Shown here one piece after another: positions 916 to 42,546 of a stretch of DNA of 64,000 nucleotides. Source of the DNA: Ferrimonas lipolytica (GTDB lineage Bacteria; Pseudomonadota; Gammaproteobacteria; Enterobacterales; Shewanellaceae); the NCBI RefSeq assembly GCF_012295575.1, contig NZ_CP051180.1, forward strand, positions 3,348,001 to 3,412,000, written 5' to 3'. Each line of letters opens with the position of its first letter. Position 1 is the stretch's first letter. A program made the translations under genes and the position numbers. The notes under the pieces were generated by a model. The model made no database searches and was not told the DNA's origin. It saw nothing but the letters and a program-made list of their open reading frames with translations.

Positions 916-2706
916 TTACTTGGCAAACACGCTGTTGGGATTGATGATCAGAGCACGGTAGTGGGGTTTGTGCGGCTTGTCGGTGCGTACATCAATCTCA
1001 ACCATGATTTCCTTAGAGTCGTAGTCAATCTCGGTGAGCTTACCTACAGTCGGGGTTGGCCCTGGCTTGAATAGGTCAATAGACCCGGAGAAGTTAAACA
1101 TGGTGTTGCGGTCAGCCCTGTACTCAGTAATGGAAGTCACGGGGCTGTACCAATCGTAGCCTTTCTCTTTCCCGTATTCCCAGATCTGCTCAATAGTACC
1201 CTTATCTTCGTCGATTTTATATTCAACGAAACGGGAGTATTTCATGGTTGGCATAGCCGGCTGTTCCAAGTTGCGGCCATCACCGTTATCGAACACGGTC
1301 AGAGTACCCTTGGGAGATAACCAAGCGGTGTGCTGAGTGTAGGTCCAGTCGAAATCGGTGCCTTCACAGGTCGCGCCCTTACAGTTCAGCTTGTTGCCCT
1401 CGTTATCAACCGGGGTCAGTACCTTATCGGACAGTTCGCCCCAACCCACGTCGGGTGCCTGAATCCACTTCACTTCCATATCGCGGCCCACTTTTACTAC
1501 GCCCTGATGACGTAGGGAGACGATGATAGCGTCGTCCTTAGGATCGTACTCAATAGAGTTGATGTGGGCCCAGTTACGGCCAGGACCAACACCCAGAGCA
1601 TCACCGAAGGGGGTGTCAGGCTCCAGTTCGGCGGTTTCACCAACGTGGTTTAGGTCCACGTTTAGGCACACCGCGCCTTGGTCCAAGGCACCTAGCAAAT
1701 CGTCACGCAGGGGATCCAATATCTTGTTGAAATCCCAAGCTTCAATCAGGTTGCCCTGACGATCGATTTCTATCACTTGGTCACGCACCGTGTGCACGTG
1801 CTGCCCGTCTTCCCGCTTATAATTGGCCTTACCGGCGCGGATCAGAATGGTATCGTTTGCAGTGTAACGGGCCTCGTGAGAACCGTCCACGTATCCTCCG
1901 GGCAGACGCTTGAAGGTGATAACGCGACCAAGCATGTCGACCTCACCCCAGCTCTGACCTTGTACGAAGACAAAGGTACCGTCTTTGGTTTCGCTGAGGC
2001 CCATCAAGTAACCTCGACTGTCCATATTACGATCGTAGCCCTCATAGGTGGCATCTTGGTTCAGCCACCAGCGGTATTCACCCTGAGTGTCGATCATGTA
2101 GGTCATAGGAGCCGCTTCGAAAGAGGCGGAGCCGGTTGCTGGCGAGGGGTCAAGCGGGTGGGCGTTCTGGGGTTTTTGACCGGACCAATGCATGTCGGAA
2201 CCGTGGAAAGTATTGGTAGAAGAGTTCACCAAGTACAGACGATCTTTAAACTGCTTGTCGACTTTTTTAACGTCGACTGGTTGCATGATGGATTGGGAGC
2301 GATTATCAATGTAGTGGTTGGTCAGGCTGCCCGTCAGAATTTTGTAATTCTCTTCAAACTTCTTACCGTCTTTAGTGAACTCAATGGTCACCTTGTTTTC
2401 GTGGTTGGCATACATCCCCCACACCGGGATGCCATCGTGAGTCAGAATGGAGGTTTTACCCACATCGTATTCAATGTCCACGCCCTTATGTCCTTTGCCT
2501 TGAACAGTAACGTGCACGTCGCTCAACTCGGCTCCGTCACGCAAGATCACTGCTGTCAGCGGGGCATTGTCGTAAGGGTTGACGATCACCGCACCCAGTT
2601 CGCCTACGGCAGGGGCTGGCGGGTATCCGGCGGCGTTTACGGTGGCAGTTAGGCCCAAGCCTGCCAAAGTGGCTACAGTGACCAGAGAAACAACGGATTT
2701 TTTCAT
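916..2706 (-). CDS. assT: aryl-sulfate sulfotransferase AssT, copy 1
   Basis: A 596-residue periplasmic arylsulfate sulfotransferase, which moves sulfate from one phenyl sulfate to another phenol without PAPS. It has a Sec signal peptide ending VNAAG, then the AssT N-terminal beta domain (GELGAVIVNPYDNAPLTAVI) and the beta-propeller. Residues equivalent to the E. coli CFT073 active site are all present: His in GSHEARY, His in NWAHINS, Arg in SLRHQG, and the transiently sulfated His in TQHTAW. The Cys pair in LNCKGATC matches the disulfide made by DsbL. Length matches the E. coli enzyme (598). The ATG is preceded by AGGG in the gap. There is no outer-membrane protein gene beside it, and the dsbL on its upstream side is a pseudogene, so it would need DsbL from another locus. 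Confidence 0.95.
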   Translation of the reverse strand: MKKSVVSLVTVATLAGLGLTATVNAAGYPPAPAVGELGAVIVNPYDNAPLTAVILRDGAELSDVHVTVQGKGHKGVDIEYDVGKTSILTHDGIPVWGMYANHENKVTIEFTKDGKKFEENYKILTGSLTNHYIDNRSQSIMQPVDVKKVDKQFKDRLYLVNSSTNTFHGSDMHWSGQKPQNAHPLDPSPATGSASFEAAPMTYMIDTQGEYRWWLNQDATYEGYDRNMDSRGYLMGLSETKDGTFVFVQGQSWGEVDMLGRVITFKRLPGGYVDGSHEARYTANDTILIRAGKANYKREDGQHVHTVRDQVIEIDRQGNLIEAWDFNKILDPLRDDLLGALDQGAVCLNVDLNHVGETAELEPDTPFGDALGVGPGRNWAHINSIEYDPKDDAIIVSLRHQGVVKVGRDMEVKWIQAPDVGWGELSDKVLTPVDNEGNKLNCKGATCEGTDFDWTYTQHTAWLSPKGTLTVFDNGDGRNLEQPAMPTMKYSRFVEYKIDEDKGTIEQIWEYGKEKGYDWYSPVTSITEYRADRNTMFNFSGSIDLFKPGPTPTVGKLTEIDYDSKEIMVEIDVRTDKPHKPHYRALIINPNSVFAK

Positions 2707-2844
2707 TATTAATACCCTATTGGTTTTGTATGATAGCAGTTAATAAAGTGGCTGGTGCTCGTCTGTATTTCGCCAACTCAGAACTACAAATAATCAGCGC
2801 GAGCTTGCCTTGAGGTCACTATCTCCGTAAGCCTCTAGATAAAA

Positions 2845-2860
2845 TGAGACAGAGATCACT
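2845..2860. promoter_or_regulatory. CRP-like site upstream of assT1
   Basis: TGAGA-CAGAGA-TCACT matches the CRP pattern TGTGA-N6-TCACA at 8 of 10 core positions. It is about 140 bp upstream of the assT1 start, in a 349-bp AT-rich gap (2707-3055) that contains no gene. CRP binding is inferred from pattern only. Confidence 0.35.
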
Positions 2861-3055
2861 CTCAAATGATGTGGCGAGGTAGCAATCCTGCTTTTTATGA
2901 CTACTGATATGATTCGATATGGATAATTAAATTTTTAATAATCGTAATTATTTTCTTGATATTCATTGGTGAGCATTACTTCCTAATTATTAAGATAAAA
3001 AATTATTCTATTTATCAGATGTTGAATTATTAACTGGCAAAGAAGCTAATAAAAA

Positions 3056-3494
3056 GGCTGTGTCGCAGTTAACTGTTGCAAGTCTATACTTAGAGTGTCT
3101 CCTGCTTCGGGGGGCTCAGACATGAAACAGCATGATTTTGCAGAACTGCTGCATCACGTTGAGGAGTTGTCGCCCAGTCAGCGTGAACAACTCCTCAATC
3201 TTCTGCGCTTTGACGGCTCTTCTGCCAGTAAATTTCTCATAGAAAATCACCCAGACACTTGTCCTCACTGCCGCTCAGCCGAATGCGACTTTGGGGTTCC
3301 ACATCCAAAATGTGAACGCTTACGACAGTCTCTTGAAAAGTTGGATAGCTCGATTTCGGGGCGTCACGACCAAATACCTGCATAACTACTTGAGGTGGCA
3401 CCGAATGTTAGACCGGTATCGGTACCAATTCGACCAAAGGCAGCGCCTTAAAGAAGTTGTTGGATGGGATGCAACAGCTAATTAAGACACAGCC
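3056..3494 (+). mobile_element. internally deleted IS1595-family insertion sequence relic
   Basis: Two pieces of an IS1595-type transposase remain. An N-terminal part starts at 3122 (MKQHDFAELL, SPSQREQLLNLL, then CPHCRS, the zinc-ribbon start). A C-terminal part lies in another frame at about 3291-3420 ([33 protein letters not shown]). The catalytic core between them is missing. Imperfect terminal inverted repeats are visible: GGCTGTGTCGCAGTTAACTG at 3056 and, reversed, GGCTGTGTCTTAATTAGCTG ending at 3494, both continuing TTGCA. No matching target duplication is visible, so flanking DNA was probably lost. The right end cuts into the dsbL pseudogene. Confidence 0.8.
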
Positions 3495-4009
3495 CTTAAT
3501 TTTGGCGATGGCTACGCCGCGATCCCACTTGGCCAGCAGTTTCCGGACTTCGGAAGAGTCCTTCTTGGCGTTGTAATCCGCTTTGGAAATACCGGCAGCA
3601 TCTAGACCGAAGGAAACGGCCTCTTCGGAGGTTTTGAATTTAATCTTGTCGTCGTGGATATGCTTGTAGTAAGCCATCTGGCTTGCTTGTACTGCTTGTC
3701 ACCCGTGGCCTTGGCGACAACTAGCAAAGTTGGTTTTTCTTTACCGAACAGAGGCTTATTAGTGATGCGGTAGGCATTGTACTCCACGCTAGAAGGCAGA
3801 TTCTTGGTGTAACCGGGAATAACAACCTTTTCGTACTTGTAGCAGAATGGGCAGTTAGTGGAGTACACCTTGACCACGCTATCTCTCGCCTAGAATGCTT
3901 CGTTACCTAAGGTGATGTAATGGGTACCTTCCTCGTAATCAGCAGCGAAACCGGAGGCGGAGAGAACTCGGGCTGCGGTGGCAGTCAGTTTGGCGAGAGA
4001 GAATTTCAT
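3495..4009 (-). pseudogene. dsbL: decayed dsbL (thiol:disulfide oxidase of the AssT system)
   Basis: Three separate lesions are visible. The ATG at 4007-4009 opens a signal peptide (MKFSLAKLTATAA...SGFAADYEEGTHYI) that hits an in-frame TAG after GNEAF. The frame then resumes with the thioredoxin-fold core VVKVYSTNCPFCYKYE, keeping the CPFC active site. After GDKQYKQ a frameshift moves the reading to AYYKHIHDDKIKF. The C-terminus stops after AIAKIKG, exactly where the IS1595 relic begins, so the cis-proline segment (IPAIVVNGKY in the intact copies) is gone. It is more divergent than the three intact dsbL genes are from each other, so it is an older lineage. No dsbI remnant was found beside it. 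Confidence 0.9.
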
Positions 4010-4236
4010 GATGTTGACCTCGGAAAAGTTAGGGCTTCAACGCGGCCCTATACCGCTGTTGGCCGCCACAATACGTCCCTTTCCGAGGCAAAAATAAGAT
4101 CCACATCACCTACCATTCCCCTTTAGCATGGAGGAACTGGACATTTTTGAGTCCACATAGATTTCGCTTCGACGTAGCAAATTCTCCCTGTCCGTTACCC
4201 AACCTTTCAATATCCACACGTGACTACTTCTCACCC

Positions 4237-4254
4237 AAAAAACCGCAATGCGGT
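4237..4254 (-). terminator. terminator after lysR copy 1
   Basis: On the minus strand ACCGCATTGCGGT forms a short GC hairpin followed by TTTTTT, about 27 bp past the lysR stop. No gene is seen in the rest of the 4010-4280 gap. Confidence 0.6.
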
Positions 4255-4280
4255 GTGTGAAAAGGGTGCAGTGTTGTCGC

Positions 4281-5234
4281 TCAGTTTTGTCTGGGCATGA
4301 CCATATGTTCGGCTTCAGCTTGCACTTGTTCCAAGGTCGCTTTGACCTCCTGGCACAGCCATTGGTGAAAAGCAGAATTCTGGTGCGAAGCTGGGTAGAT
4401 GCCGTAATGAATGGACTTGACCTGTTCCAATTCCTTGGGGCCGTGAAACAAAACCAACCTATCTTGGAACGCCGATAAACCAACCTGGGAGGTGTAAAGC
4501 AGTGCATTTCCTCGCTCTATTATATTCACCAAGGCTGGCAAATAGTCTGCTCGTGCAACTACCTTGGGGAAGAGTCGCTTCTGTTCCGATACAACTTCGA
4601 TAATGTTTTTACTCCGGTTCGGGTTGTACACCTGTTGCACTACCCAAGGATATTGGCATAGGTCCATCAGAGTAATGTTACGTCGTCTCAAGATGGGGTG
4701 GTGGGGGCGGCAAGCCATCAATCGCTGTGCAGGCCCAAGAGCTTCTGAAGTGATCATGGGGTCATCCGGTACGAAGTTGTGCACGGCGAAGTCGAGGTCA
4801 TCTTGCCTTAGCTTGTCCAGAGTTTCCGACGTCCAGGTACTGAAGCTCAACTCCAGGCCGGGAGCCTGATGGTGTAATCGTTCGAACAGCCGTGGAATCA
4901 GGCCCACTGCCATTGGTTCAATCACTGCAATGTTAACCTGACCAACATAGTCGGTAGGATTAAACTCCTCCTTGGAGTTGTAGAGATGCTCAACGGCCCC
5001 TAATACTTCAGAAATTTGAGGATAGAGCCTTAGAGTCTTGTCATTAGGCACTAATCCTTCTCTGCTACGAATGAACAGAGAATCATCAAAGATTTCCCTG
5101 AGCTTCTTCAATTCGTAACTCACTCCCGACTGAGACAGATTCAGCTTCGTAGCAGCTTTCTGGGTAGAACCTTCCTCCACTAATACCTTCAGTAATCGTA
5201 GAGATCCCACTTTCAAATCATTAAGGTTCGGCAA
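4281..5234 (-). CDS. LysR-family transcriptional regulator, copy 1
   Basis: A 317-residue LysR-type regulator. The N-terminal winged HTH is at about residues 8-65 (LRLLKVLVEEGSTQKAATKLNLSQSGVSYELKKLRE, then LFIRSREGLVPN). A periplasmic-binding-protein-like effector domain follows (VGQVNIAVIEPMAVGLIPRLF). Full length for the family. It sits between the dsbL relic and an OmcA/MtrC-like lipoprotein, all on the minus strand, and is not divergent from any assT. It may once have regulated the decayed dsb module, but nothing in the sequence proves a target. Confidence 0.9.
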   Translation of the reverse strand: MPNLNDLKVGSLRLLKVLVEEGSTQKAATKLNLSQSGVSYELKKLREIFDDSLFIRSREGLVPNDKTLRLYPQISEVLGAVEHLYNSKEEFNPTDYVGQVNIAVIEPMAVGLIPRLFERLHHQAPGLELSFSTWTSETLDKLRQDDLDFAVHNFVPDDPMITSEALGPAQRLMACRPHHPILRRRNITLMDLCQYPWVVQQVYNPNRSKNIIEVVSEQKRLFPKVVARADYLPALVNIIERGNALLYTSQVGLSAFQDRLVLFHGPKELEQVKSIHYGIYPASHQNSAFHQWLCQEVKATLEQVQAEAEHMVMPRQN

Positions 5235-5485
5235 AGCAAATTCCTCCTTGGTCAGTAACGAAGCTGTAATTATTTGGAATCAAGTTTGTCAAATTACCTT
5301 GCCGACTTTTCAACGATAGGCAAGAGCTAGGCCAAGGTATTCTATATCGAAGCCAAGAAGAGATAGCTTTGTTCGGTGTGAAAGATATCCCAATTAAAAC
5401 AATCGCCTTCATCTCGTTTTCGCAAGTGCAAGTAGTGGGCAGCGACTACATAACTGCCCAATCCATAGAGATCTCATGTCAGCTT

Positions 5486-5998
5486 TTACCCTACAACGGT
5501 CATTGGTGAACCGAATCTGAGTGTCAGGAACTGGCCGAACAGCGACCGTTGAGGCAGTGTTAGATCGTAAGCGCTGTCAACGGCGCCACTAAAAGTGTAG
5601 CGATAGGTGCCATCGTTACGATCCTCTAGCTCACCAGCACAGCTATCAACTTTGCACTTTTCATACCCTAACACTTGCCATTGCGAGCGCTCACCTTCGT
5701 TTTCGGCTTGTAGCTGGGCTGCTTGCACCTTTAACCCGTCGATACGCACTAGCGGCAAAGCCAATTCATTGTAAGCGGCAAATTCAATAGTTAAACGGCC
5801 ATCAACCACTGTACTTGCGGTTATCTCAACATCAACGGTTTTTGCTTCATCGGTAACCAATGGAGCAGCATCACCAGGGATCCCCGGAGCCCCAGGAGCA
5901 CCATCTTTACCATCATCGCCGTCTGAGCAACCCACTAGGCCTAACAGTAACGTGGACGCCAATATCGCGGTGATTCGATTCACTGCAAAAGTCATCAT
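5486..5998 (-). CDS. lipoprotein resembling the haem-free N-terminal domain of OmcA/MtrC cytochromes
   Basis: A 170-residue protein with a lipoprotein signal (lipobox LVGC), then a collagen-like spacer (GKDGAPGAPGIPGD). The body fits the first domain of OmcA/MtrC decahaem cytochromes: LTIEFAAYNELALPLVRIDGLKVQAAQL, SQWQVLGYEKC, DGTYRYTFSG, then LTLPQRS. There is no CXXCH motif anywhere, and it stops where the haem domains of MtrC would begin. The only Cys pair (CKVDSC) is not a haem site. It is either an orphan domain or a truncated cytochrome gene. No cytochrome gene follows it on the minus strand. Family assignment is by recalled resemblance to MtrC. Confidence 0.65.
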   Translation of the reverse strand: MMTFAVNRITAILASTLLLGLVGCSDGDDGKDGAPGAPGIPGDAAPLVTDEAKTVDVEITASTVVDGRLTIEFAAYNELALPLVRIDGLKVQAAQLQAENEGERSQWQVLGYEKCKVDSCAGELEDRNDGTYRYTFSGAVDSAYDLTLPQRSLFGQFLTLRFGSPMTVVG

Positions 5999-6218
5999 CT
6001 ATCCTCATCATCAACTGCTGCGACATGGGCCGCAGCGAACGGTGACATTGTGAATTTTTGCAAGCAGCACTGCTGAGGGCACAAGTGGGGTTAACGAATA
6101 AGTGAAGGTTTAAGGTAATTATTCAGGCGATTTAAGCACTTTTAAGAGCAAAGGCAGTGGTGGGAAGTTATAAAAAAATCTAAAAAACCTTTATCTTTAT
6201 ATACTTACTTTTATTCGG

Positions 6219-6392
6219 TATGGCTTAGGCCTAATCGACACTGCGGCGTTAATGCATCTAGATGTCGACTACGATGATACCTTTATCAGTGGCATACATG
6301 GCTTAGCTAGCACACCGAGGCCAATGATTCGCCAGTGCATCCAAGTCAGGCGCCACTTGATATTAAAAATAGCTGATAGCAAGTGGCATTAA
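6219..6392 (+). other. possible gene remnant in a 423-bp intergenic region
   Basis: The 5999-6421 gap holds a forward stretch with coding-like composition (LGLIDTAALMHLDVDYDDTF, then ISGIHGLAST) ending at a TAA, but with no start codon or ribosome site and no recognised family. It may be the tail of a lost gene. The rest of the gap is AT-rich and shows nothing else. Confidence 0.2.
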
Positions 6393-6421
6393 TAAGCGAC
6401 AATTGACAAGTAAGCAGATTA

Positions 6422-7174
6422 TTACTGCAACTCTTGGGCGTTCATCTCTACCGCCCAAATATGTTCATCAACATCAAAGTTTCGTAATGAAGTTTCAACT
6501 TCATCACATATATTCATTACTCGCTTAAAGCTGTCGTTAGTTAATGGCGTCTGCCAGCTTAATTCTTCCAAGCTAAATGACATCACCTTAAACACACGTT
6601 CCATAGGCAAACTTATCGCCTCATCGCGGAAGCTGTAATTATTACTGAACAGCGAGAAGCCTCGCTCAACGCAAGTAACTTCATTGAGACACTGATGAAG
6701 GTGATCGTCATCGGCCACCAGCTCGCCATTAGCGCGTGCCATCTGCAGGAAGTTCAGGTTACTTTGGTACCAGCTATCCAGCAGTTTGCGAGTAATAGCA
6801 ATACGGCTATGCGACGCATGTTTCCATACGCTCGGCATGGCGGCCAAAAACTGTACACCCCCCAAATCACTTTGCTTATGTTGGCGCCGAATCCAGATCA
6901 TCTGCATCGCCATAAACCGCTCTGCTATAGACTCCTGCCGCAATGCAATCTCTTGGCAGGCTTTAACCCCAAAGGTTGCCATCACCCGATTAAACAAGCC
7001 AACCGCGATATCTTCTCGTTTAGCAAAGCTGCCATAAAGGGTATTGACGGAGCACTCAGCTTGGCGCGCTAACTCTAGTAAGCTCAGTGAGAACAACCCT
7101 CTCTCAACGATCGCTTCCTCCGCTTTATCTAGAATCATTCTGTCTCGCTGTTTCTTCTGCTCAACCCGGCCCAT
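6422..7174 (-). CDS. TetR-family regulator, copy 1 (divergent from omp1-assT2)
   Basis: A 250-residue TetR-type repressor. The start is the internal ATG at 7174 because AAGGA stands 7 bases before it; the longer frame adds 11 residues without a ribosome site. The HTH covers about residues 12-58 (RMILDKAEEAIVERGLFSLS, then ECSVNTLYGSFAKRED). The ligand domain shows IRRQHKQSDLGGVQF, AMPSVWKHASH and VERGFSLFSNNYSFR, features shared with copies 2 and 3, so these regulators form one subfamily. Divergence from omp1-assT2 across a 397-bp gap suggests local control, presumably relieved by an aryl sulfate or phenol ligand (inference). Confidence 0.9.
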   Translation of the reverse strand: MGRVEQKKQRDRMILDKAEEAIVERGLFSLSLLELARQAECSVNTLYGSFAKREDIAVGLFNRVMATFGVKACQEIALRQESIAERFMAMQMIWIRRQHKQSDLGGVQFLAAMPSVWKHASHSRIAITRKLLDSWYQSNLNFLQMARANGELVADDDHLHQCLNEVTCVERGFSLFSNNYSFRDEAISLPMERVFKVMSFSLEELSWQTPLTNDSFKRVMNICDEVETSLRNFDVDEHIWAVEMNAQELQ

Positions 7175-8315: not shown

Positions 8316-8362
8316 CTGATTACTTCGACCGAATTAAATAGAGATATATAGGAATTAACGTT

Positions 8363-10072: not shown

Positions 10073-10136
10073 CCCCAGCGTAAACGCAACAACCACAACC
10101 TAACCCAGCAAGCCGGACCTCGTGTCCGGTTTGTTG
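9480..10136 (+). repeat. near-identical tract shared by assT2 and assT3, copy A
   Basis: By direct comparison, this stretch and 13406-14062 differ at only three positions (C/T in CGCCAC, CGCCAC/CGCTAC, and GGTTAC/GGCTAC). It runs through the assT stop codon and the hairpin after it. The upstream parts of the two genes differ at many codons. Confidence 0.9.
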
Positions 10137-12261: not shown

Positions 12262-12288
12262 TCAATCCAATTTAGCAGGACAATAATT

Positions 12289-15512: not shown

Positions 15513-15537
15513 TGTTCTACATCATGTCTTAACGATC

Positions 15538-15565: not shown

Positions 15566-15587
15566 ATTGTTGGTATTTATACCAAAC

Positions 15588-35100: not shown

Positions 35101-36459
35101 TATAGCGTATCGGATGGGGCCGGAGGCCTTGCTACTGCAACGGTCATCGTAACGGTCACAGCGAATCAAGTTGTTAAAACTGAAGGAGGCAGTGGCGGTA
35201 GTATGAGCCATGGTTGGATAGTACTGCTGATGTTCGCGGCGGCGTGGCGTCGCTTGTCACAGCAGCGGATGGGAGCGGCCGTGCTGGCTGCCATCGCCCT
35301 GATGAGCTCGGCAGCCAATGCGGCCGGGCCAGAGGGTAAGGAGTCCAAGGCGCTTAAGTCTTGGTTCGTCAGCGGCCAGTTGAACTGGGCGGCCAGCCAG
35401 GTGGATGAGTCAGATCTTAACGGAGACTTTACCGATGCAGGCATCAATGCCTCGGTGCTGTCGCTGGATGAAGCACGCCTGGGTTGGGGATTAGGGCTGG
35501 GCTACTTCGTAACCGATAACTGGTTCGTTGAGGCGGGTTACCTGGATACCGGCGAGGTAGAGCTCACCCTGCAAGGGATCTTCGATGATACCGAGCAGTT
35601 TTTCGATACGGTTGAACACATCTACCCAGAATCAGGCAGTGGTCCATACGCGCAATTGGGTTATCGCTATCAGCTTTCGCCGCAATTCTCGTTGAGCGGC
35701 AAAGTCGGGGCCTTCTTCTGGCAAGGGGACTACGATAGCTTCTCACTATCAGGAAACGGTAGGGGCTCGGATGCACCGAGCGGCACCGATCTGCTTTATG
35801 GCATCAGTGCTGATTATCGATTTGCTGATAACTGGGTGGCTTCAATGCAAGCGCAGCGGATTGAGTTTGATAACTACCCAACCCATATGATTGGCCTGAA
35901 TCTGGCTTACCACTTTGGTGCAGCAAAGCAACCGGCATCTACCGTGACTAAACCGATCACAGCAAAGCCTGTAGTTGTGGCAGATGGTGATGGTGATGGT
36001 GATGGCGTGCAGGATCGAATGGACCAATGTGCGCAAACACCGGTTACTGATGCGGTGGATGAGTTCGGCTGTACTCGTTGGCAAAAAACTTCGACCAAGC
36101 TGAAGTTACAGATCTTGTTTGCCAACGACAGTGACGTCGTTGCCGCTGAATATGATCCGGCTTTAGCAGAGGCAGCTGAAATAATTACAGCGCACAACTT
36201 GCAACATGTGCCCATCAGCGGCCATAGCTCTTCACCTGCAGGCCGTGCCTACAATCAGGAGTTGTCTGAACGTCGAGCTGAAGCAGTGAAAACCATTTTG
36301 GTCGAGCATTACCAGCTGTTACCGGAACAGTTAGATGTACAGGCCAAGGGAGAAAGTGAACTCAAGGTATCAGGCGATAGCGAAGCACACCATGCGCAGA
36401 ATCGCCGGGTTGAGATTGAGCTTTCTTTTCCCGAGAAGAATGCACTGAAACGGCAGTAA
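26155..36459 (+). CDS. giant surface protein: VCBS and tandem-95 repeats, GlyGly-CTERM-like tail, fused to an OmpA-type protein
   Basis: 3434 residues. Approximate order: signal peptide 1-28 (SMMIVSVSVSASE); unique Asp-rich N-domain to 462; two CSPG/cadherin-like units 463-683; eight VCBS-type repeats 684-1471 (GSVVEDTQ, SGQLTVTD, DGSWEYTLD, then TGTDD); tandem-95/cadherin-like repeats 1472-2324 (NDAPVA-DDS, VLANDSDADGD, YQP); HYR-like 2325-2404; Calx-beta-like 2405-2508; PKD-like 2507-2606; TSP3 2612-2643 (DSDGDLIPD); a choice-of-anchor-like domain to 2822 (PGLTEGHWCVQLT); two more tandem-95 units to 3010; GlyGly-CTERM-like tail about 3011-3037 (GGSGGSMSHGW, hydrophobic stretch, RR). An internal second signal follows (MGAAVLAAIALMSSAANA, from 3039), then a beta-barrel, TSP3 (DGDGDGVQDRMDQC) and an OmpA C-terminal peptidoglycan-binding domain (ELSERRAEAVKTIL, NRRVEIEL). 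The many Asp-rich turns suggest Ca2+ binding. It is likely an adhesin or biofilm protein. No type I secretion genes are nearby. Confidence 0.88.
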   Translation: MSSRLKLASLAKLWLLTSMMIVSVSVSASEPLLNLDVNFQRINIGGEGVTITQFPSKLEVTERYRDWSVCQNGPSFDCPNPESVEDAIWVDDIVHLYENVITIDGVQVDAVMLRTSFGEHNPTKQADYDVEASSDDDGDFCPVYIGDIQYDIHFILGGSFDLDSMTWEPVNLQNVQATTRGSGFGDYMDFTGFDRLWISRYDNATSTSPVVDEYHIATGFTRFRGKGGTNGRYALFYDNLSTFSMSINSAYAISDYSLIRFGGYQDWYIGPNGAPYDAVELDVSSLTFSLDGSLDGSTDNARAVRVDDAEVPLIADGELVKNFGIVGDSYSELYDGYYHLWLSYDARQILDGSAEKLRVGEHEFSLVDGENQNSVRAGSDRVDVTFYDPMDNMVLIDIYKTVEMNGHIPDNRRLHPDEMEDLIEDIRYINTSANPTPGERAFFVTPQHFNFGLKAGKLNIEVVDNTPPLAESRTLVVAEESLGTPVSLAVSDVDGDPLEMNIRELPLMGTIVDGTGTPLVINQNLSAEAFAQLKYDAPEDYLHEQNPGQLSYAVNDGFTEAIGVLDIQVLPINDAPKADSASIYVDEDDVDVVPGLETPTDADNDSLLITVFSVPDLGSVTLNGIAVQLGQVISEQEFTALRYQAPTVLSENSASTRFAYLVDDQQDMSNSTDEGELLITIAAVDDDPVLTDDYARMVESVDTVASGQVNAFDEETGPQLYVPQQAPYYYGYFELFEDGKWQFLLNSSTAASLKEGETKTLQFQAKLASGWPSQIIIDIVGVDTPPEITTGEGSVIEDERTYASGSLTAKDLDDGHPQFIDKVYQGTYGALTVSNGSGYSGTWNYRLDSDKADPLQQDEQVVEQFTILLSDDYTTTVTINITGTDDPSKISRGQGSVVEDTQLTSSGQLTVTDPDNNIDAVEFKTEIVNGDFGSLSIDSDGSWEYTLDNDKANPLGEGEKDSDLLTVSLADGRTTTVVIYITGVDDAPEVSEGQGSVVEDTQPRTSGTLIVTDVDGPKLSFTEQVLKGSYGTFFIKLDGSWSYNLDEQLANPLAQDETIQELFTATLSNAMTTKVTIDVMGSDDPAVIYSELQYVYEDTRLQASGQFRVSDPDSPLPTFDTFSKTSAYGEVNLEEDGRWNYLLDNDKVNHFAKGDSETETYPVELSDGSTSELKIVIHGTDDPAEISAGVGAVVEDSQPATSGLLVATDVDSPSLAFKAAELNGSYGKLTVSADGSWGYLLDERADALAQDQAATDQLTLTLNDNQSTTTVTISITGTDDKPVIEEGSGSVVEDSKPTTSGTLVAFDADDPTLKPVAAVILGDYGSFTIAVDGSWTYQLDERADALTEGQSLTKVFTVNLTSGEATKVTIAISGIDDVPVISEGVGSVVENTQIQASGQLTATDADNPELSFIAAEFEGTFGDLVVNADGNWEYQLDERAEVLGQDQQELDGFVVALNDDSATHINITVTGINDEPLAVDDSSELDEDALTVIEVLSNDIDAEHSIDPASVMVTTKPENGSVEVNVNNGSINYQPDANYAGSDSFQYRFTDADGAQSNIATVSLTIRELNDAPLVVNDSAMTEEDVAVEVDVLANDSEIDSEDSIDASSLEIVTEPNHGTVAIVDGKLWYTPALNQTAAAQLSYRVADSFGLYSEAALVVVAISGLNDAPVARDDSFEIDEDTPLVLTLLANDEDVDSVLGNESVRILTQPDNASVSQDEAGNWQFLSETHVNGNFEFQYLLIDDNELASQPATVTVEVLAVNDAPIAQDDSAQLLEDGDVSINVLGNDSDVDGELVLSSIDIVTAPQYGEVTLDRTSGLVRYQAAANHYGSDSFVYRVQDDLGAWSNTAVVELNIAAVNDAPEAVDDVATVIESDSVIIAVLTNDFDTDGELMPQSVTVMAAPSHGEVELNADGSIRYTPQPDYYGADKFSYQIADEIGELSNIAQVAITVISNNGIPVAKDDSYTLAEGELLSINDGVLLNDSDADADPITAELVTKPSYGELILNSDGSFSYQHDGSEQRSDSFSYRVSDGEAVSDNANVSLTISNVNDAPLANDDSQTTLEELPVTIMVLANDSDADGDALSVTLLSQPTLGQATVLDSGSVLYQPWPNLNGGDSFNYQINDGNGGIANAKVAITIGGVNDAPVAMDDSAVTDNRTGVMVDVLANDSDADGDTLTLVSAEVAVGQVLINPDQTLSYQPDPEVLGEMPISYQISDGNGGLANALVTVTVVSNNAPPVANDDELVLASGQTEAQIDVLVNDIDADGDSLALIGAAASEGSVTIASNQLRFVTGDNFSGFASISYRISDGFGGEDSAVVTVIDEDALKPVITVPDSAYVDASGLFTKVNLGTATAEDRYGNPLPVSLIDGLPFFQPGDNTAFWQACDDEGRCATAPQKVYVRPLISIAKDQVVLEGDEVEVAVVMNGAHFEYPVTVPFTVSGDADNADHDLQAGEVIIESGSSASIRFRVVQDELLEGDETLLIELAEGINRGNKHNHEIVISESNLAPELTLAAYQAGEPRLIAFQQQGMMEVEAQLVDPNLGDSHQLVWQLDDAVVDLDADDYRVSFEPSKMEVGLYPLSLTVTDNGGLSDTSALYIEVRSSAVALMPNQDSDGDLIPDAQEGYVDSDYDGIPDYLDQMTDECNVLPETVDNWDGYIVEGDPAVCLRTGAYSAQGVTGGAQIVDEDIAVEGDELGVDTEAQNIGGIFDFIAYNLPESGQQLQVVMPQRLAIPADAVYRKFLPNEGWITLVEDLFNLVHSAPGEPGFCPPPGGDVWTPGLTEGHWCVQLTLVDGGRYDADGMVNGTVVDPGGVAVLLSDNTIPVALDDSITLRAGEQTEIWVLDNDSDADGDALTVVSASASFGEVTINDDGSVSYLAPENYLGSDNIRYGISDGQGGSAYAEVAVTVYVNRAPVAEDDTAQMFDGEQIDLPVLANDSDADDDVLRIVDVTASAGSVSIIDDGKLRFEAPEGFVGNVVIEYSVSDGAGGLATATVIVTVTANQVVKTEGGSGGSMSHGWIVLLMFAAAWRRLSQQRMGAAVLAAIALMSSAANAAGPEGKESKALKSWFVSGQLNWAASQVDESDLNGDFTDAGINASVLSLDEARLGWGLGLGYFVTDNWFVEAGYLDTGEVELTLQGIFDDTEQFFDTVEHIYPESGSGPYAQLGYRYQLSPQFSLSGKVGAFFWQGDYDSFSLSGNGRGSDAPSGTDLLYGISADYRFADNWVASMQAQRIEFDNYPTHMIGLNLAYHFGAAKQPASTVTKPITAKPVVVADGDGDGDGVQDRMDQCAQTPVTDAVDEFGCTRWQKTSTKLKLQILFANDSDVVAAEYDPALAEAAEIITAHNLQHVPISGHSSSPAGRAYNQELSERRAEAVKTILVEHYQLLPEQLDVQAKGESELKVSGDSEAHHAQNRRVEIELSFPEKNALKRQ

Positions 36460-36523
36460 GGTTGAAGGCTGTCCGGCGTTAAACTACCACCGCTTAAGCC
36501 TGTAACCTTAAACACAGTAAAAG

Positions 36524-36553
36524 CCGTCATTACCTTGGTAATGACGGTTTTTT
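36524..36553 (+). terminator. rho-independent terminator after the giant gene
   Basis: CCGTCATTACC pairs with GGTAATGACGG around TT, followed by TTTTTT. It is 65 bp past the stop. Confidence 0.92.
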
Positions 36554-36619
36554 GGTGTTTTACCATCGCTCTAGTTAAGGACTGAGGTCAATCACCACTG
36601 GTTCAGGACTGTTGTATAA

Positions 36620-37190
36620 AGTGAGTGCAAGCAGTCAGATTATCGACCTAGAGGACGAACTACCTATTGGCTGTTAAGGGCGCTAAGGCAGTTAAAAAGG
36701 CTTTTAAATCGGTAACAAAGCAGATCCATACAAGCACTATCGAGCGAGGCCATGGGCGTGTCGAAGCCCGCGAATACCATGCTTGCCTACTAATGATATT
36801 GCAGCCGAATTGTCAGCTTGGAAAGGGCAAAAACGATTGGTGTCGCCATTGGCTATCCGTTGGATTCGGATGGCAGAGAATCGCTGGACTATCGCTATTA
36901 CATCAGCTCAGCAGAACTAACTCCCGAACGATTTGCCGATGCGGTTCGGGGGCGTTGGGTGTTCGATGTCACTATGAATGAAGACGCATGCCAAATTTAC
37001 CGAGGCAATGCCGCCGAGATACTGGCCAGAGTCCGCTCTATGGCACTTAACATGTTGCGTATAGAAACCAGTAAAAAGGCCAGTATGCCCTGAAAACAGA
37101 AGCGAGCAGCAATTAATATAGGTTACTTAGAACAGGTGATTTTGCGGGTCTCAACGAGCTCGATTAAAACTGAATACACGTGCTATCTCC
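36620..37190 (+). mobile_element. ISAs1-family transposase remnant (right of the giant gene)
   Basis: Frame-broken transposase pieces in order: AVKGAKAVKKAFKSV (the usual AVKGNQ block), ERGHGRVEAREYH, then after a frameshift IGVAIGYPLDSDGRESLDYR, YYISSAELTPERFADAVRG, then RWVFDVTMNEDACQIYRGNA. The SHWSIENRLHW-type segment between AVRG and FDV is deleted here but partly kept in the left remnant. The orientation is the same as the left remnant, and the last 230 bp repeat it almost exactly. Confidence 0.85.
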
Positions 37191-37448
37191 CCGCCCTACA
37201 GATGCTTATTGATAATATAATTAATTTATAAGCTATGTCATATTTACCATAGCATTATAAAAATTAGGTATCTCAGATAAATATAAAAAGTTTTAGCATA
37301 TTACTCGAATAAAAATTATTAAGATATACAACTCAAAAAATGGAGTATTATTTACCCAATCAACAAGATTAAATTTAATTAAAATAATATAGTTTGTGAC
37401 TTAATATTGTTGATTTCAATGTCAAACATCAATATAAATTTCTATCCA

Positions 37449-37473
37449 TAAAAAAATGGGCTCAAAAGAGCCC
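37449..37473 (-). terminator. terminator of the assT5-omp3-dsbL3-dsbI3 operon
   Basis: GGGCTC-AAAA-GAGCCC followed on the minus strand by ATTTTTTTAT, 20 bp past the dsbI3 stop. The 37191-37448 stretch beyond it is very AT-rich and holds no gene. Confidence 0.88.
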
Positions 37474-37492
37474 GTTTCTTATTACTTTAATA

Positions 37493-38107
37493 TTACTTTT
37501 TCAATAGCTTTGATACCCAACCAAAGGTTGCCGCTCCCAAACAGATACCAAAAATGCTGTAAGCAATGATGCAGTACTCGGCCATATTTAAGCCCAGCAG
37601 TGACCAATCGTCTTCACCACAAATACCAGAGGGCTGGAACTCATACGGAAACCACTCATGCAGTGGCAAGCCCAGTGGGAACTTCGGATCGGTAGAGCAA
37701 GAGCCGGCACCACCACCAGCAGCAAACAGATCACCACCGCTGGATAACACATCATCCAATTCATGTGCGGCGTGGTGGATATCGTTTAATTGAATCGACC
37801 AAGCCATGCCTTGCACAACGCCATACCAAGCCAACAATAGACCAATCACTTTCAAGACATTATTGCTCGGCTTTATGGCAATAATCAGTCCTGCAAACAG
37901 GATACAAAACTGGCTGTAACGGATGTAAACGCACTTCTCACAAGGGTCCATCTCGAGGAACCACTGGAAGTAACCCATCGCAGATAGAATCAGAAATAGT
38001 GCCGCTCCGCTCATCACCAACCATAGCCAGCGTTGGTTTTGCCACTCAGATAAGGTTTGGGCTGGGGCACTTTTCAGTGAACTAAAGCCCGCTGTAATTG
38101 GATTCAT
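37493..38107 (-). CDS. dsbI: DsbI, copy 3
   Basis: 204 residues, identical to copy 1 through the four membrane segments and all four redox cysteines (PCEKC, GSCSTD, GICGED). Only the last ten or so residues differ (GWVSKLLKK, more like copy 2, against GWLKKLITK). It is the last gene of the complete assT-omp-dsbL-dsbI operon. Confidence 0.93.
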   Translation of the reverse strand: MNPITAGFSSLKSAPAQTLSEWQNQRWLWLVMSGAALFLILSAMGYFQWFLEMDPCEKCVYIRYSQFCILFAGLIIAIKPSNNVLKVIGLLLAWYGVVQGMAWSIQLNDIHHAAHELDDVLSSGGDLFAAGGGAGSCSTDPKFPLGLPLHEWFPYEFQPSGICGEDDWSLLGLNMAEYCIIAYSIFGICLGAATFGWVSKLLKK

Positions 38108-38664
38108 CAGATACCCCTACTTAGCCAGCAGTTCAGCAGTTAACTCGTCCAGCATCTTCATGCTGGTCACGCTTTGGGTGATGATCAGGTATTTGCCGTT
38201 AACCACGATGGCTGGAATACCTTTAATCTTGGCTACTTCTAAGCCTTGGTCCCACTTCTTCAGCAACTTGGCAACTTCTGCTGAGGCTGCACGCTTATCG
38301 AACTCTGCTTTGGAGATCCCCAATTGATCGATACCGAACTGAGTCGCTTCTTCGCTTGAGCTGAACTTCTTCTTCAGATCGTGAATTTGCTTGTAGTAGG
38401 CCATCTTCACTTTCTTGTACTGCTTATCGCCCAACACTTTACCCACTGCAACCGCAGTGGCTTTTTCTAGTCCAAATGGTGGCTTGGTGGTTATATGGTA
38501 GGCATCGTAACTGATGCCATCAGGCAAGTTTTTAACGTAATTAGGGATAACCGCTTTTTCATACTTGTAGCAGAACGGGCAGTTAGTGGAATAAACCTTT
38601 ACCACTTGATTTGGAGCCTCGAAACCACCGTCTTTTAGGTCGATGTAATGCTTACCTTCATCGT
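37518..38664 (-). repeat. near-identical dsbL-dsbI tract, copy B
   Basis: Counterpart of 16611-17757 in the same orientation, with three differences. A recombination between the two would remove or invert nothing essential in the tract itself but would delete about 21 kb including the giant gene. Confidence 0.92.
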
Positions 38665-38719
38665 AGGCCGCTGCACCAAAAGAAAGAGTTAGGGCTAATA
38701 CTGATAGTAATTTTTTCAT
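38117..38719 (-). CDS. dsbL: DsbL, copy 3
   Basis: 200 residues. The mature protein is the same as copy 1 (TNCPFCYKYE, KGIPAIVVNGKYLI), but the signal peptide (MKKLLSVLALTLSFGAAA) is different, showing where the copied tract stops. The ribosome site is weak (AAGAATGAC). It lies 62 bp after omp3 and 9 bp before dsbI3. Confidence 0.94.
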   Translation of the reverse strand: MKKLLSVLALTLSFGAAAYDEGKHYIDLKDGGFEAPNQVVKVYSTNCPFCYKYEKAVIPNYVKNLPDGISYDAYHITTKPPFGLEKATAVAVGKVLGDKQYKKVKMAYYKQIHDLKKKFSSSEEATQFGIDQLGISKAEFDKRAASAEVAKLLKKWDQGLEVAKIKGIPAIVVNGKYLIITQSVTSMKMLDELTAELLAK

Positions 38720-38781
38720 TTTGTCATTCTTAAATTAAATTAGTAAACAGGATAAATACGACTCTTCGTAACTGTAAATAT

Positions 38782-39534
38782 TTAGAAAACAAAATTTACT
38801 GAAGTTTCTATAGCTTGCCCATCTTTAGCATAACCACCCCAATCACTGTAATCGTGATATACCATGGCGATGTTTATGGATTTGTTTATTTGGTATTTAC
38901 CACCCAACAATATGTGATGGCCGTTATCTTCACTATGGTTAAAGGTCTCCTTAAAGTCCTCATCGCGGTCCCATCGAGAATCAGCTAAACCAAATACAGT
39001 GGCATTAGCTGCCAATGGATAAGCGAACTCAAAACGAGTAATTGCTGCCCCCAGCATTACATCATAGGAGCGAAGTGGTGAGTGCCCGACTGAGTAAGGC
39101 AAACCCGCTCCTGCTTTAAGTTTTAATTTGCCAATTTTTGCACTATAAGCAAGGCCAAGTGTATTGGTAACTTCAGTAATGTTTTGGTTTGCTGATGAAT
39201 ACCAATCCCACCATAACTGCGTACTACCATCACCTAACTTATAATAAACATCAGCAAAGGTTTTAAACGTTTCAACCGCCGATTTACCATTAGGTTTGTC
39301 TGCTTCGAGTGTGAATGGGTTTTCATACCTTGCGGCCAGACTAACTAATCCCCAATCAGTAATAGTTTTATGTTTAGCGGTTAACACCACGTAATCATTT
39401 TTATTGGATTTATCGGCATCATCACCTAAGTGCGCACGATAACCAACGCCGACACTATTTGTTTGTTTTATTATTTCGGCTTGTGCAATTGAAAATGGAG
39501 CTAGAACAGCAAGCGCCAATGCAATTTTTTTCAT
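38782..39534 (-). CDS. outer-membrane beta-barrel protein of the assT5 operon
   Basis: A 250-residue exported protein with signal MKKIALALAVLAPFSIAQA and AGGAG before the ATG. The mature part is made of amphipathic beta strands (GLVSLAARYENPF, STQLWWDWYSSAN, IAMVYHDYSDWGGY) and ends SVNFVF with a terminal Phe. It does not align by eye with omp1 and omp2 beyond the barrel pattern, so it may be an independent recruit to the same role. Its place between assT5 and dsbL3 makes it part of the sulfotransferase operon. Family not certain. Confidence 0.75.
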   Translation of the reverse strand: MKKIALALAVLAPFSIAQAEIIKQTNSVGVGYRAHLGDDADKSNKNDYVVLTAKHKTITDWGLVSLAARYENPFTLEADKPNGKSAVETFKTFADVYYKLGDGSTQLWWDWYSSANQNITEVTNTLGLAYSAKIGKLKLKAGAGLPYSVGHSPLRSYDVMLGAAITRFEFAYPLAANATVFGLADSRWDRDEDFKETFNHSEDNGHHILLGGKYQINKSINIAMVYHDYSDWGGYAKDGQAIETSVNFVF

Positions 39535-39547
39535 AACAACTCCTAGT

Positions 39548-39578
39548 GTAGGAGGCCCAATTAATTTAGGCCTCCTAC
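39548..39578 (-). promoter_or_regulatory. intercistronic hairpin between assT5 and omp3
   Basis: GTAGGAGGCC and GGCCTCCTAC form a perfect 10-bp stem within the 51-bp gap. On the transcribed (minus) strand no U tract follows, so it is more likely an mRNA-stabilising or processing element than a terminator. It ends just before the omp3 ribosome site. Confidence 0.6.
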
Positions 39579-39585
39579 TTATTTT

Positions 39586-41361
39586 TTAGTAGTTAAACAT
39601 TTGGGTTAGATCAAGAATCAAAGCGCGGTAATGTGGTGCGTGTGGTTTATCGCTGGTTACGTCAATTTCCACTTTAATATCTTTGGTTTTGTAGTCGATT
39701 TCGTTGATACGTCCGATAACGCCATCTTTAGAAAACATATTGGCTGAACCACCAAAACCAAACATGGTGTTGCGATCACCACGGTATTCAGTATTTGACG
39801 TAACGGTAGAGAACCAATCGTATCCGCGGTCTTTACCGTATTCCCATACCTGCTCAACGGTGCCTTTGTCTTCGTTGATCTTGTATTCAACGAAGCGACT
39901 GTACTTCATGGTTGGCATTGCTGGTTGCTCGTAATTACGAGTGCCGCCGTTGTCATAAACGGTAATGGTGCCTTTGCCTGTCAGCTTGGCGTCGTGTTGT
40001 GAGAACGGCCAATCAAAATCGGTGTTATTGCAACTGGCATTGTGGCAGTCCAACTTACGGCCTTTGCTATCAACCGGTGTAAGCACTTTGTCTTTGAGTT
40101 TGTTCCAACCAACATTTGGTGCCAGTACCCACTTAACCTCTTTATCGCGCCCCACTTTCACCACACCTTGATGTCGTACCGACAGGATCAGTGAGTCATC
40201 ACTTGGATCGTATTCAATAGAGTTAACGTGAGCCCAGTTACGGCCAGCACCAACCCCAACAATGTCTCCAAATGGTGCATCTTGCTCAATCTCAACAGTC
40301 TCTCCTTGATGATCAACGTCAACGTTCATGCATACCGCCCCCGCATCCAACGCCAACAACACTTCTTCTCGTGAGTTCTCAAGGATTTTATTCAAGTCCC
40401 ACACCTCAACGAGGTTGCCGGTTGGGGTAACTTCAATAATATGGTCACGGACGGTATTTACGTAGCTGCCATCAGCGCGACGATAATTTTGCTTACCAAC
40501 TCGAATGAGGTAATTACCACTGCTGGTTTGGTTAATCTCGTGCGAAGCATCAACATAACCACGAGGAAGTTTAAAGTCGGTCATACGACCGATAAGATCG
40601 AACTCTCCATAGTGCTGCCCCTGCAACCAAGTGTAGGTGCCGTGATCGGTTGGGTTTAAGCCCATGAATACGCCACGCTTATTGGCATCAATATCAAAGC
40701 CGTCATAAACCTTATTTGGATCCATCCACCAGCGGATCTCTCCCTGCGTATCGACTACATAGTTCATCGGTACTTCATCAAATGGCATCGCACCACCGCC
40801 AGGGGCAGGATCGGTTTTGGCTGCCCCCACTGCTTTCGGAGTTGCCCAGTTTAGGTTGGCACCATTGGGGTTATAGGTATTGGAGTTAACAAAATAGAGG
40901 CGATCTTCGAAGCCTTTACTTACTTGTTTTACCTTGATTTGCGGCAGTGCTGTTAAGTTACGACTATCGATGTAATCGTTGGTGATAGCACCGGTAATGA
41001 TTTTATATTGTTCCTCGTGTGCCTTGCCGTTTTTAGTAAATTTTACCGTCACCGTATTTTTGTAATCAGCGTAGAGACCAAATACTGGAATACCATCGTG
41101 AGAATTCATCGCGGTATCACTAACCTTGTACTTAATGTCTACCCCATTCTTACCTTTACCATGAACCAGCACACTAATATCGCTGACAGTATGGGTATCA
41201 AGTCCAATAACTGCAGTTAGCGGTGACATCCGATAGGGGTCCATAATTACCGAGCCCAATTCACCAACGGCAGGAGCTGGAGGAAACGCGCCAGCATGAA
41301 CACCACTGCACACGCAGAAGCTCAACAGAGACATTTTTAGTAACGAGTTGGTTTTCATCAT
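39586..41361 (-). CDS. assT: aryl-sulfate sulfotransferase AssT, copy 5
   Basis: 591 residues from ATG 41361 (AAAGG six bases before; an in-frame TTG lies one codon earlier). The signal ends SGVHAGAF. Motifs: ASHEINQ, NWAHVNS, SVRHQG and SQHDAK at the four catalytic positions; TQHTAW has become SQHDAK, so the residue after the sulfated His is Asp. Disulfide pair CHNASC. Overall it is most like AssT1 (FPPAPAVGELGSVIMDPY, the long insert with APGGGAMPFDEVPMNY). First gene of the only operon here that carries assT, a barrel, dsbL and dsbI together. Confidence 0.94.
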   Translation of the reverse strand: MMKTNSLLKMSLLSFCVCSGVHAGAFPPAPAVGELGSVIMDPYRMSPLTAVIGLDTHTVSDISVLVHGKGKNGVDIKYKVSDTAMNSHDGIPVFGLYADYKNTVTVKFTKNGKAHEEQYKIITGAITNDYIDSRNLTALPQIKVKQVSKGFEDRLYFVNSNTYNPNGANLNWATPKAVGAAKTDPAPGGGAMPFDEVPMNYVVDTQGEIRWWMDPNKVYDGFDIDANKRGVFMGLNPTDHGTYTWLQGQHYGEFDLIGRMTDFKLPRGYVDASHEINQTSSGNYLIRVGKQNYRRADGSYVNTVRDHIIEVTPTGNLVEVWDLNKILENSREEVLLALDAGAVCMNVDVDHQGETVEIEQDAPFGDIVGVGAGRNWAHVNSIEYDPSDDSLILSVRHQGVVKVGRDKEVKWVLAPNVGWNKLKDKVLTPVDSKGRKLDCHNASCNNTDFDWPFSQHDAKLTGKGTITVYDNGGTRNYEQPAMPTMKYSRFVEYKINEDKGTVEQVWEYGKDRGYDWFSTVTSNTEYRGDRNTMFGFGGSANMFSKDGVIGRINEIDYKTKDIKVEIDVTSDKPHAPHYRALILDLTQMFNY

Positions 41362-41637
41362 CAAAGCCTTTATTTGTGTTAGTGAATAAAGGCTATCGTG
41401 AAAAAAATAATTTAACTCTCAACATAATGGGATGCGGCATTGCAGTTTGTGACACCATTATCTTTATGCCAATCACGGCTTAATTGAAGACTGTGATCAC
41501 CATACAACTTGCTCTCAAGTGCTCGATACTTTTTTCGACTGAGGTTCGCCCCCCTCCTTCCATATTTGGTCTTACGGTTACTATTTTATTTCAGGGCTGG
41601 TTAATGTAACTACCGTTTCCTCATAGGCAGTGCGTAT

Positions 41638-42546
41638 ATGAACCTCGAAGCGGTAACAGTTTTCCAGAGCGTTGCAAATCTTCTAAGCATATCCAGAGCG
41701 GCAGAAGTGTTAGACATTCCGACTTCGTCGATCAGCCGTAAGATCCGTGCATTAGAGCAAGAGCTGGGAGCAGAGTTATTTCACCGTGGCGGTAAGCGCA
41801 TCACCTTAACCCACCAAGGTGAGCTGTTATTGCAGCGCGCAGAAGTCATTACCGCAGAAATAGCGCAGATCAAACAAGAGATCAGCTGCCATGATGATTC
41901 CATTACGGGTGAGATCCGAATCGCCACGCCACCAAGCTTAGCGTCAATATTAACGACAAGCTTCTTTATTCCATTTCAACAGCGTTACCCACAAATCCAA
42001 CTGTCGATTCAGTCGACTCAAGGGCGTCAATTGGACGAGTTGCTCGACTGTGACTTTGCCATAAGCCCCAACCAACCCCGTGACCAATCATTGATTGCCA
42101 GCCCTATCTGTAAGGTGAAACGCTACTTCTGTGCCAGCAAACGTTTTATCGCCACTTTTGGGGAACCAACCAGCCCAGAGCAATTGAATCTTTACCCATT
42201 TCTATCACTGGCTCACTCTAATTTGGCCAAAGGGGAGCTGCATTGGAACAACGGTAAAGGCAAAAGCGGCCAAGTGCCGATAACAAGCTATGCCTCATCA
42301 GATTCTCCCGCAGTCTTGGCGCAGATGATGCTGGCAGATAAAGGCATCGCTTGTTTGCCTGAAATGGTGCTGGCCGAGCTGCCACAAGACCAGTTTCAAC
42401 TGCTATTTAATGGCGAAATTCTCGATATCAACGATCTATACATCATCTATTCGTCTCGTCGCTATCAACTGCCCAGAGTACGTCTGCTTATCGACGAACT
42501 CGTTGAGAACATTCGACAGTGGAGCTCTACCCCGCCAGCGCAGTAA
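41638..42546 (+). CDS. LysR-family regulator, copy 2 (divergent from assT5)
   Basis: A 302-residue LysR regulator. The HTH is FQSVANLLSISRAAEVLDIP, then TSSISRKIRALEQELGAELF. The effector domain starts GEIRIATPPSLASIL. It is related to the short-chain CrgA/AaeR-type LysR group by length and layout. Divergent from assT5 across 276 bp that contain two TGTGA half-sites (near 41447 and 41492), so it is the likely activator of the complete operon. It is not closely similar to LysR copy 1. Confidence 0.92.
   Translation: MNLEAVTVFQSVANLLSISRAAEVLDIPTSSISRKIRALEQELGAELFHRGGKRITLTHQGELLLQRAEVITAEIAQIKQEISCHDDSITGEIRIATPPSLASILTTSFFIPFQQRYPQIQLSIQSTQGRQLDELLDCDFAISPNQPRDQSLIASPICKVKRYFCASKRFIATFGEPTSPEQLNLYPFLSLAHSNLAKGELHWNNGKGKSGQVPITSYASSDSPAVLAQMMLADKGIACLPEMVLAELPQDQFQLLFNGEILDINDLYIIYSSRRYQLPRVRLLIDELVENIRQWSSTPPAQ

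Follow-up and report, generated by a model that had tools for sequence, protein, structure and literature searches.

Five arylsulfate sulfotransferase genes in a lineage-specific insert of Ferrimonas lipolytica, part of a genome-wide set of 15

Why should five genes for arylsulfate sulfotransferase (AssT) lie together in one island of a marine-type bacterium, and does each serve a purpose of its own? The question is raised by positions 3,348,001 to 3,412,000 (forward strand) of contig NZ_CP051180.1 of Ferrimonas lipolytica (assembly GCF_012295575.1); this whole stretch of 64,000 nucleotides is called the window. AssT requires an acceptor as well as an aryl sulfate donor, and its reaction is not a simple release of sulfate. 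An earlier reading of the letters alone (the sequence-only reading) described five AssT paralogues with DsbL-DsbI pairs, outer-membrane barrels and regulators, and proposed a different aryl sulfate and a different inducer for each enzyme. The explanation that we consider probable is a stepwise insert at a Ferrimonas core locus, which carries five AssTs independent of 3'-phosphoadenosine-5'-phosphosulfate (PAPS) out of a genome-wide set of 15, with shared Dsb helpers and separate regulators.

AssT genes of the window and the genome

The five AssT open reading frames (ORFs) of the window are full-length, at about 570-620 aa, and all five matched both PF17425 and PF05935 above cut-off in the Pfam profile search (PF05935 410-418 bits). 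Ten more, overlooked by the sequence-only reading, lie outside the window, for a whole-genome count of 15, all with intact ORFs and PF05935. The alignment columns matching E. coli His252, His356, Asn358, Arg374, His436, Cys418 and Cys424, placed using PDB 3elq, are invariant in 15 of 15, and the catalytic residues and disulfide cysteines attributed earlier to the five window enzymes are complete. We take the three histidines, Asn358 and Arg374 to be catalytic and Cys418/Cys424 to be the disulfide residues. By domains and residues the proteins are AssT family members, predicted to transfer sulfate between phenols without PAPS. That some of them have given up arylsulfate transfer and instead modify other targets in the periplasm, such as peptides, glycans or quinols, seems very unlikely with every catalytic column invariant, even though the available portions of PMC13426309 describe the roles of most AssTs as poorly understood and Cpz4 as acting on a sugar hydroxyl.

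Counting assT genes in relatives, as the sequence-only reading had suggested, gave 0-3 in the 13 sister Ferrimonas genomes and a maximum of 6 in the family, where 70 of 151 other genomes had a match (own count from a genome-wide search; the family and class searches scored 11/16 and 5/16 of the own candidates). In a class-wide draw, 17 of 368 other genomes had a match, 13 of the 17 below 85 bits. The expansion is lineage-specific, well kept and larger than was seen from the window. A copy number so unusual for the genus could point to an assembly artefact or contamination, but the genome is a single 4.13-Mb contig (completeness 100, contamination 0) and the AssT copies lie at about ten places with different flanks, so that this explanation is given almost no credence.

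The features are listed below (coordinates in the window, strand, description).

423..42888 (approximate limits, about 42.5 kb), unstranded: lineage-specific insert, from comparison with the junction in sister genome G013
916..2706, minus: AssT1, E. coli-like arylsulfate sulfotransferase (PF05935 416.9 bits, PF17425; aligns with PDB 3elq over 26-594)
3480..3997 (approximate), minus: broken dsbL remnant upstream of AssT1 (early stop, frame change, C-terminal end absent)
4281..5234, minus: LysR-type regulator 1, LysR1 (PF00126, PF03466)
6422..7207, minus: TetR-type regulator 1, TetR1 (PF00440), divergent from the omp-AssT2 unit
7542..8315, plus: Omp_a, Tsx-like outer-membrane barrel with 12 strands (NF008574 88.8 bits, cut-off 282; model)
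8363..10072, plus: AssT2 (PF05935 417.8 bits)
10395..11243, minus: TetR-type regulator 2, TetR2 (PF00440), divergent from the omp-AssT3 unit
11335..12261, plus: Omp_b, barrel related to Omp_a (NF008574 82.7 bits, below cut-off)
12289..13998, plus: AssT3, duplicate of AssT2 (PF05935 410.1 bits)
14307..15512, plus: Trp/Tyr permease-like protein (TyrP-like), possible accessory (PF03222)
16586..17812, minus: DsbL-DsbI pair a (PF02600, PF01323), downstream of AssT4
18012..19826, minus: AssT4 (PF05935 416.2 bits)
20103..20879, plus: TetR-type regulator 3, TetR3 (PF00440), divergent from AssT4
20911..22153, minus: DsbL-DsbI pair b (PF02600, PF13462), in a gene run without AssT
37493..38719, minus: DsbL-DsbI pair c, in line with AssT5 and Omp_c
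38782..39534, minus: Omp_c, barrel-type (NF008574 28.7 bits, partial match, below cut-off)
39586..41364, minus: AssT5 (PF05935 411.8 bits; PDB 3elq alignment)
41638..42546, plus: LysR-type regulator 2, LysR2 (PF00126, PF03466), divergent from AssT5

The analysis bears out the earlier inventory of five AssTs, three DsbL-DsbI pairs, three barrels and five regulators, to which the broken dsbL (tblastn match in two pieces, 56-60% identity) is added here. Omp_b probably starts 3' of the listed TTG. Several module layouts had been claimed, and four can be distinguished by gene order: LysR1, broken dsbL and AssT1; TetR1 divergent from Omp_a-AssT2, repeated as TetR2, Omp_b and AssT3; TetR3 divergent from AssT4 and pair a; and LysR2 divergent from AssT5, Omp_c and pair c. 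Across the whole genome, 14 of 15 AssTs have a LysR or TetR gene nearby, six have a protein of the Omp_a/Omp_c groups (one more has a Porin_4 protein) and five have an intact Dsb pair. A two-component pair also recurs close to AssT genes in some Shewanella and Ferrimonas. At locus L025 of the own genome, 8470-9063 (minus), directly upstream of an AssT, there is a weak PF04143 (Sulphur transport) match of 22.6 bits, below cut-off.

The insert and its junction

The block is an insert: it lies at a core junction whose two sides almost meet in all 13 sisters. Genes for an EF-G-like GTPase and an S58 peptidase lie on its left and an M16 peptidase gene on its right, and the distance from the EF-G-like gene to the M16 gene is 44.2 kb here compared with 1.2-3.1 kb in 13/13 sisters (compared by gene places in all 13 and gene by gene in 12, with G007 excepted). 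The flanks being close together in every sister, the block is lineage-specific, and the limits given by the sequence-only reading (916-42546) nearly equal those of the insert. Among the 13 sisters, G013 has the M16 gene most similar to the one here (81% identity); in that genome, about 15 bp separate the end of a small lipoprotein-like gene from the M16 terminator. Here, the lipoprotein-like gene spans about -57 to 422 and the terminator/M16 homology starts again at 42889; the insert is therefore placed at approximately 423-42888.

A mobile-element signature at the insert ends was rejected, there being no tRNA, shared 14-mer or integrase (none among the scanned window ORFs, in a scan that covered part of the ORFs). 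Just downstream of the broken dsbL, a stop-containing frame at 3122-3460 (plus) without a Pfam match up to its first stop resembles what we take to be the start of an IS1595-type transposase. The insert ends in an interspersed repeat of about 300 bp (42598-42906) with 327-329 candidate sites in the genome; the 40 candidate sites that were scored are mostly full-length and 86-92% identical. The repeat has no match in 12 of the 13 sister Ferrimonas and only diverged pieces in G013, it folds somewhat better than shuffles (z -2.5) and no Rfam family matches it at the gathering score. A role in spreading assT was rejected, with about 20 copies in 212 kb of twelve stretches, near the genome-average candidate density.

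The same neighbourhood holds AssTs of other branches in G002, G003 and G011 (one close group) and in G010, and a truncated DsbI is retained in G013. The junction thus appears to be a repeatedly used spot, with few independent cases. These hot-spot signs, along with the broken dsbL and the IS-like remnant in the block, would suit an explanation by redundancy, in which all copies have one function, with no labour divided among them, and persist for dosage or by chance at a site prone to insertions. However, the other 14 AssTs are only 41-60% identical to AssT1, are all intact and fall in different clades, and AssT2 and AssT3 are under purifying selection; redundancy is accordingly rated as rather doubtful.

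The insert also contains a gene at 5486-5998 (minus) for a 170-aa protein with a match to the MtrC/MtrF N-terminal domain (PF22111) and no second Pfam domain. A 3434-aa cadherin-repeat protein with a C-terminal outer-membrane barrel and OmpA domain is encoded at 26155-36459. Its gene is flanked by a direct repeat of 233-240 bp (92.5%; 25375-25607 and 36952-37191), and these two copies only were found in a genome search.

Enzymes, regulators, helper pairs and barrels

AssT trees were built from 103 rows and from 65 chosen rows. In both, the 15 enzymes are scattered among those of Shewanella, Ferrimonas, enterobacteria and Campylobacterota; support is weak at several deep forks, and some branches are long. 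A single clade was rejected for the 15 (p-AU 1.15e-69) and for the five window enzymes (p-AU 4.7e-9), so the 15 are not the product of one recent amplification. AssT2 and AssT3 form the sole clear recent pair (support 99/98, 88.9% identity, dN/dS 0.137, which indicates purifying selection). Their neighbours Omp_a and Omp_b are 60.7% identical, and TetR1 and TetR2 only 31.9%, so a near-identical enzyme stands under two unlike regulators. Of these two regulators, it is TetR1 that closely resembles the one in the usual Ferrimonas module described below, scoring 288-320 bits against the TetRs of loci L062, L063, L065, L067 and L131. A public name looks wrong at L074, titled Marinobacter nauticus DP3N21-5, where the AssT groups as sister to the Ferrimonas balearica enzyme.

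For the AssT2/AssT3 pair, different inducers therefore seem likelier than different substrates, as judged from these identities: the different-inducer idea of the sequence-only reading fits the pair, and a distinct aryl sulfate for each of the two appears unlikely. Its wider proposal, a division of labour in which each AssT serves a different natural aryl sulfate, can be held only tentatively. It draws on the deep divergence between AssT clades and on the differing neighbours (barrels, porin, major facilitator superfamily and TyrP-like proteins) at different copies, but AssT2 and AssT3 are almost the same enzyme and the known AssTs are broad in substrate according to the accessible part of PMC13426309.

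The helper pairs do not follow the enzymes. The genome has seven genes of the DsbB family. Six of them are DsbI-like and adjoin a DsbL, which gives six pairs for 15 AssTs, so that enzymes do not as a rule have a pair each. Between pairs a and c, 98% of protein and 98.7% of DNA positions are identical, a likeness confined to the two ORFs, whereas the neighbouring AssT4 and AssT5 share 46.6% identity. Pair b and the pair at locus L017 are 97.5% identical. In the Dsb tree (45 rows reduced to 43, with 15 enterobacterial loci and duplicates omitted), five of the six own pairs fall in one clade and the sixth, at L021, lies apart; the DsbI of pair a belongs to a separate DsbI-like branch. Shewanella marinintestina likewise has two near-identical Dsb pairs beside AssTs from different clades. 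Because pairs that are 98% identical adjoin AssTs that are 47% identical, Dsb is read as a shared helper, and the cassette was presumably copied or homogenised between modules and would serve unlike AssTs. The DsbL of pair a has a CPFC motif, and its best PDB matches are 3l9u and 3c7m, which we take to be DsbL structures, ahead of DsbA chains.

The AlphaFold2 model of Omp_a (predicted local distance difference test 85.2) has 12 strands, with the nucleoside channel Tsx as its top hit in PDB (1tlw; E 4.7e-7, TM 0.60-0.63, 11% identity). By sequence the barrels gave no Pfam match at E 0.001, the Tsx family included. Omp_a is accordingly modelled as a Tsx-fold channel, in the sense that it may work like one. 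Omp_c and its relatives are 16-25% identical to Omp_a; Omp_c, barrel-type as judged from its sequence, clusters with proteins adjoining AssT in other loci. The comparison set consisted of 79 fetched loci and eight named genomes in which AssTs were counted. The co-occurrence of omp and dsbLI with assT, a check put forward by the sequence-only reading, was run on the loci: proteins of the Omp_a/Omp_c groups lie near AssT in 16 of 79, all among the 32 titled Shewanella or Ferrimonas, and DsbL and DsbI are both present in 51 of 79. The position of the barrels suggests an entry route for aryl sulfates. A relative of the TyrP-like permease (PF03222 type; 14307-15512 here) adjoins AssT in Shewanella sp. 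NIFS-20-20 (L078), and these two loci give a weak lead towards tyrosine sulfate as a substrate.

Known systems and the preferred reading

More than one AssT is present in 5 of the 79 fetched loci (L051, 3; L054, 2; L087, 5; L096, 2; L102, 2). The 21 loci of the E. coli type (L028-L048) each have one AssT and one pair and no barrel relatives, but share with the window the catalytic and cysteine columns and the DsbL/DsbI-type helpers, and AssT1 and AssT5 fall in the larger clade of E. coli-type AssT; PDB 3elq is the AssT structure of this type and 3c7m its DsbL structure. The Campylobacter portucalensis array (L087) likewise has five AssTs in one place with DsbL-DsbI, but in one direction and with a single pair, and no barrel or LysR/TetR relative was found in the locus search. 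Shewanella marinintestina has two AssT modules side by side. A further known system is the TetR-DsbL-DsbI-Omp-AssT module of five other Ferrimonas genomes (L062, L063, L065/L133, L067/L132, L131) and of Shewanella (L068, L070), where close relatives of AssT2, AssT3, Omp_a/b and TetR1 are found. The usual Ferrimonas module has dsbL-dsbI between TetR and Omp; the window has the unit twice, each time without the Dsb pair and in one case with an unlike TetR.

Large AssT sets are known from the gut genus Sutterella. PMC10932419 reports 17 asst genes in Sutterella wadsworthensis 3_1_45B, including 7 close to lysR, and its main text contains no occurrence of DsbL. In four other Sutterella genomes (S. 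wadsworthensis 2_1_59BFAA, S. seckii and two uncultured), 7, 11, 10 and 5 AssTs were counted; Campylobacter portucalensis has 5, and Mesosutterella, C. concisus and Budvicia have 1-2 each. A 22-kb region of S. wadsworthensis 2_1_59BFAA contains four AssTs, one of them next to LysR-like genes, and a single DsbL-DsbI pair; in a canine Sutterella, 4 of the 5 AssTs read adjoin a LysR-like gene. The window is therefore not the only place where AssTs are clustered and locally regulated. Many diverged AssTs per genome, clusters, LysR-like neighbours and few DsbL/DsbI genes are common to both lineages, but the five Sutterella stretches read have no barrel or TetR relatives and no copied Dsb pairs were seen in them.

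The novelty claimed for the multi-module organisation is thus narrowed. Multi-copy, clustered and LysR-flanked AssTs are known in Sutterella. The sequence-only reading held that the same multi-copy layout in described systems would end the novelty; multi-copy clusters exist in Sutterella and in Campylobacter, though without barrels or TetRs in the stretches read. An insert of several AssT modules with channel-type barrels, TetR and LysR regulators and copied Dsb pairs was not seen elsewhere among the fetched loci. Searches of the open-licence PMC literature found nothing joining Ferrimonas with sulfotransferase or arylsulfate sulfotransferase with an outer membrane channel, and only the Sutterella paper PMC10932419 joining aryl-sulfate sulfotransferase with Shewanella.

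The stepwise insert with shared helpers and separate regulators is thus the reading preferred here, and a number of points count against it. Parts of the insert may have been ancestral and then lost in the sisters, as the truncated DsbI in G013 would suggest, and as to the mode of origin the window has no tRNA and the insert edges share no exact 14-mer. Part of the block is decaying, as shown by the broken dsbL and the probable transposase fragment at 3122-3460. For the helpers, the top NCBIfam hits of DsbL in pairs a and b are to DsbA models, with scores far under the cut-off, and the DsbI of pair a has NF003304 as its best model at 167 bits, below the curated equivalog cut-off of 212. Ten of the 15 AssTs are without an intact Dsb pair nearby (AssT1 having the broken dsbL only), so that their reliance on distant pairs is assumed.

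According to the preferred reading, the insert was built up at the core locus, probably in several steps, and the set grew mainly by gathering diverged Shewanella/Ferrimonas-type AssTs, with one local duplication (AssT2/AssT3) whose copies now stand under unlike regulators. Aryl sulfates would enter through Tsx-like channels, as one model and gene position suggest. By the invariant residues and the solved E. coli enzyme, the periplasmic AssT would load sulfate on its catalytic His and pass it to another phenol. The sequence pattern is consistent with DsbL/DsbI forming the AssT disulfide and with a few interchangeable pairs serving many AssTs, and the LysR/TetR proteins, from their positions, may switch the modules separately.

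A search limited to PF00884 (type I sulfatases) gave one weak match in the genome, of a length/score kind common to 14/14 genus members; strong matches are present in 11 of the 14 and missing from the own genome, G009 and G010. This lack alone does not explain the AssT expansion, because G009 and G010, also without strong matches, have 2 AssTs each. A lifestyle of periplasmic sulfate exchange in place of release, with 15 separately regulated AssTs, Tsx-like channels, few shared and copied Dsb cassettes and the canonical type I sulfatases lost, is a speculative and on balance unlikely extension. Marine phenol sulfates do exist, for example zosteric acid (PMC12985265, in the part available), and PMC13426309 calls it an open question what AssT does physiologically and which substrates it uses in nature. 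With 15 AssTs under separate regulators and type I sulfatases matched only weakly, F. lipolytica offers a natural experiment, in which the inducers of the modules should point to the real donors. Its diverged AssTs beside near-identical Dsb pairs make the question of a dedicated or a shared oxidase directly testable.

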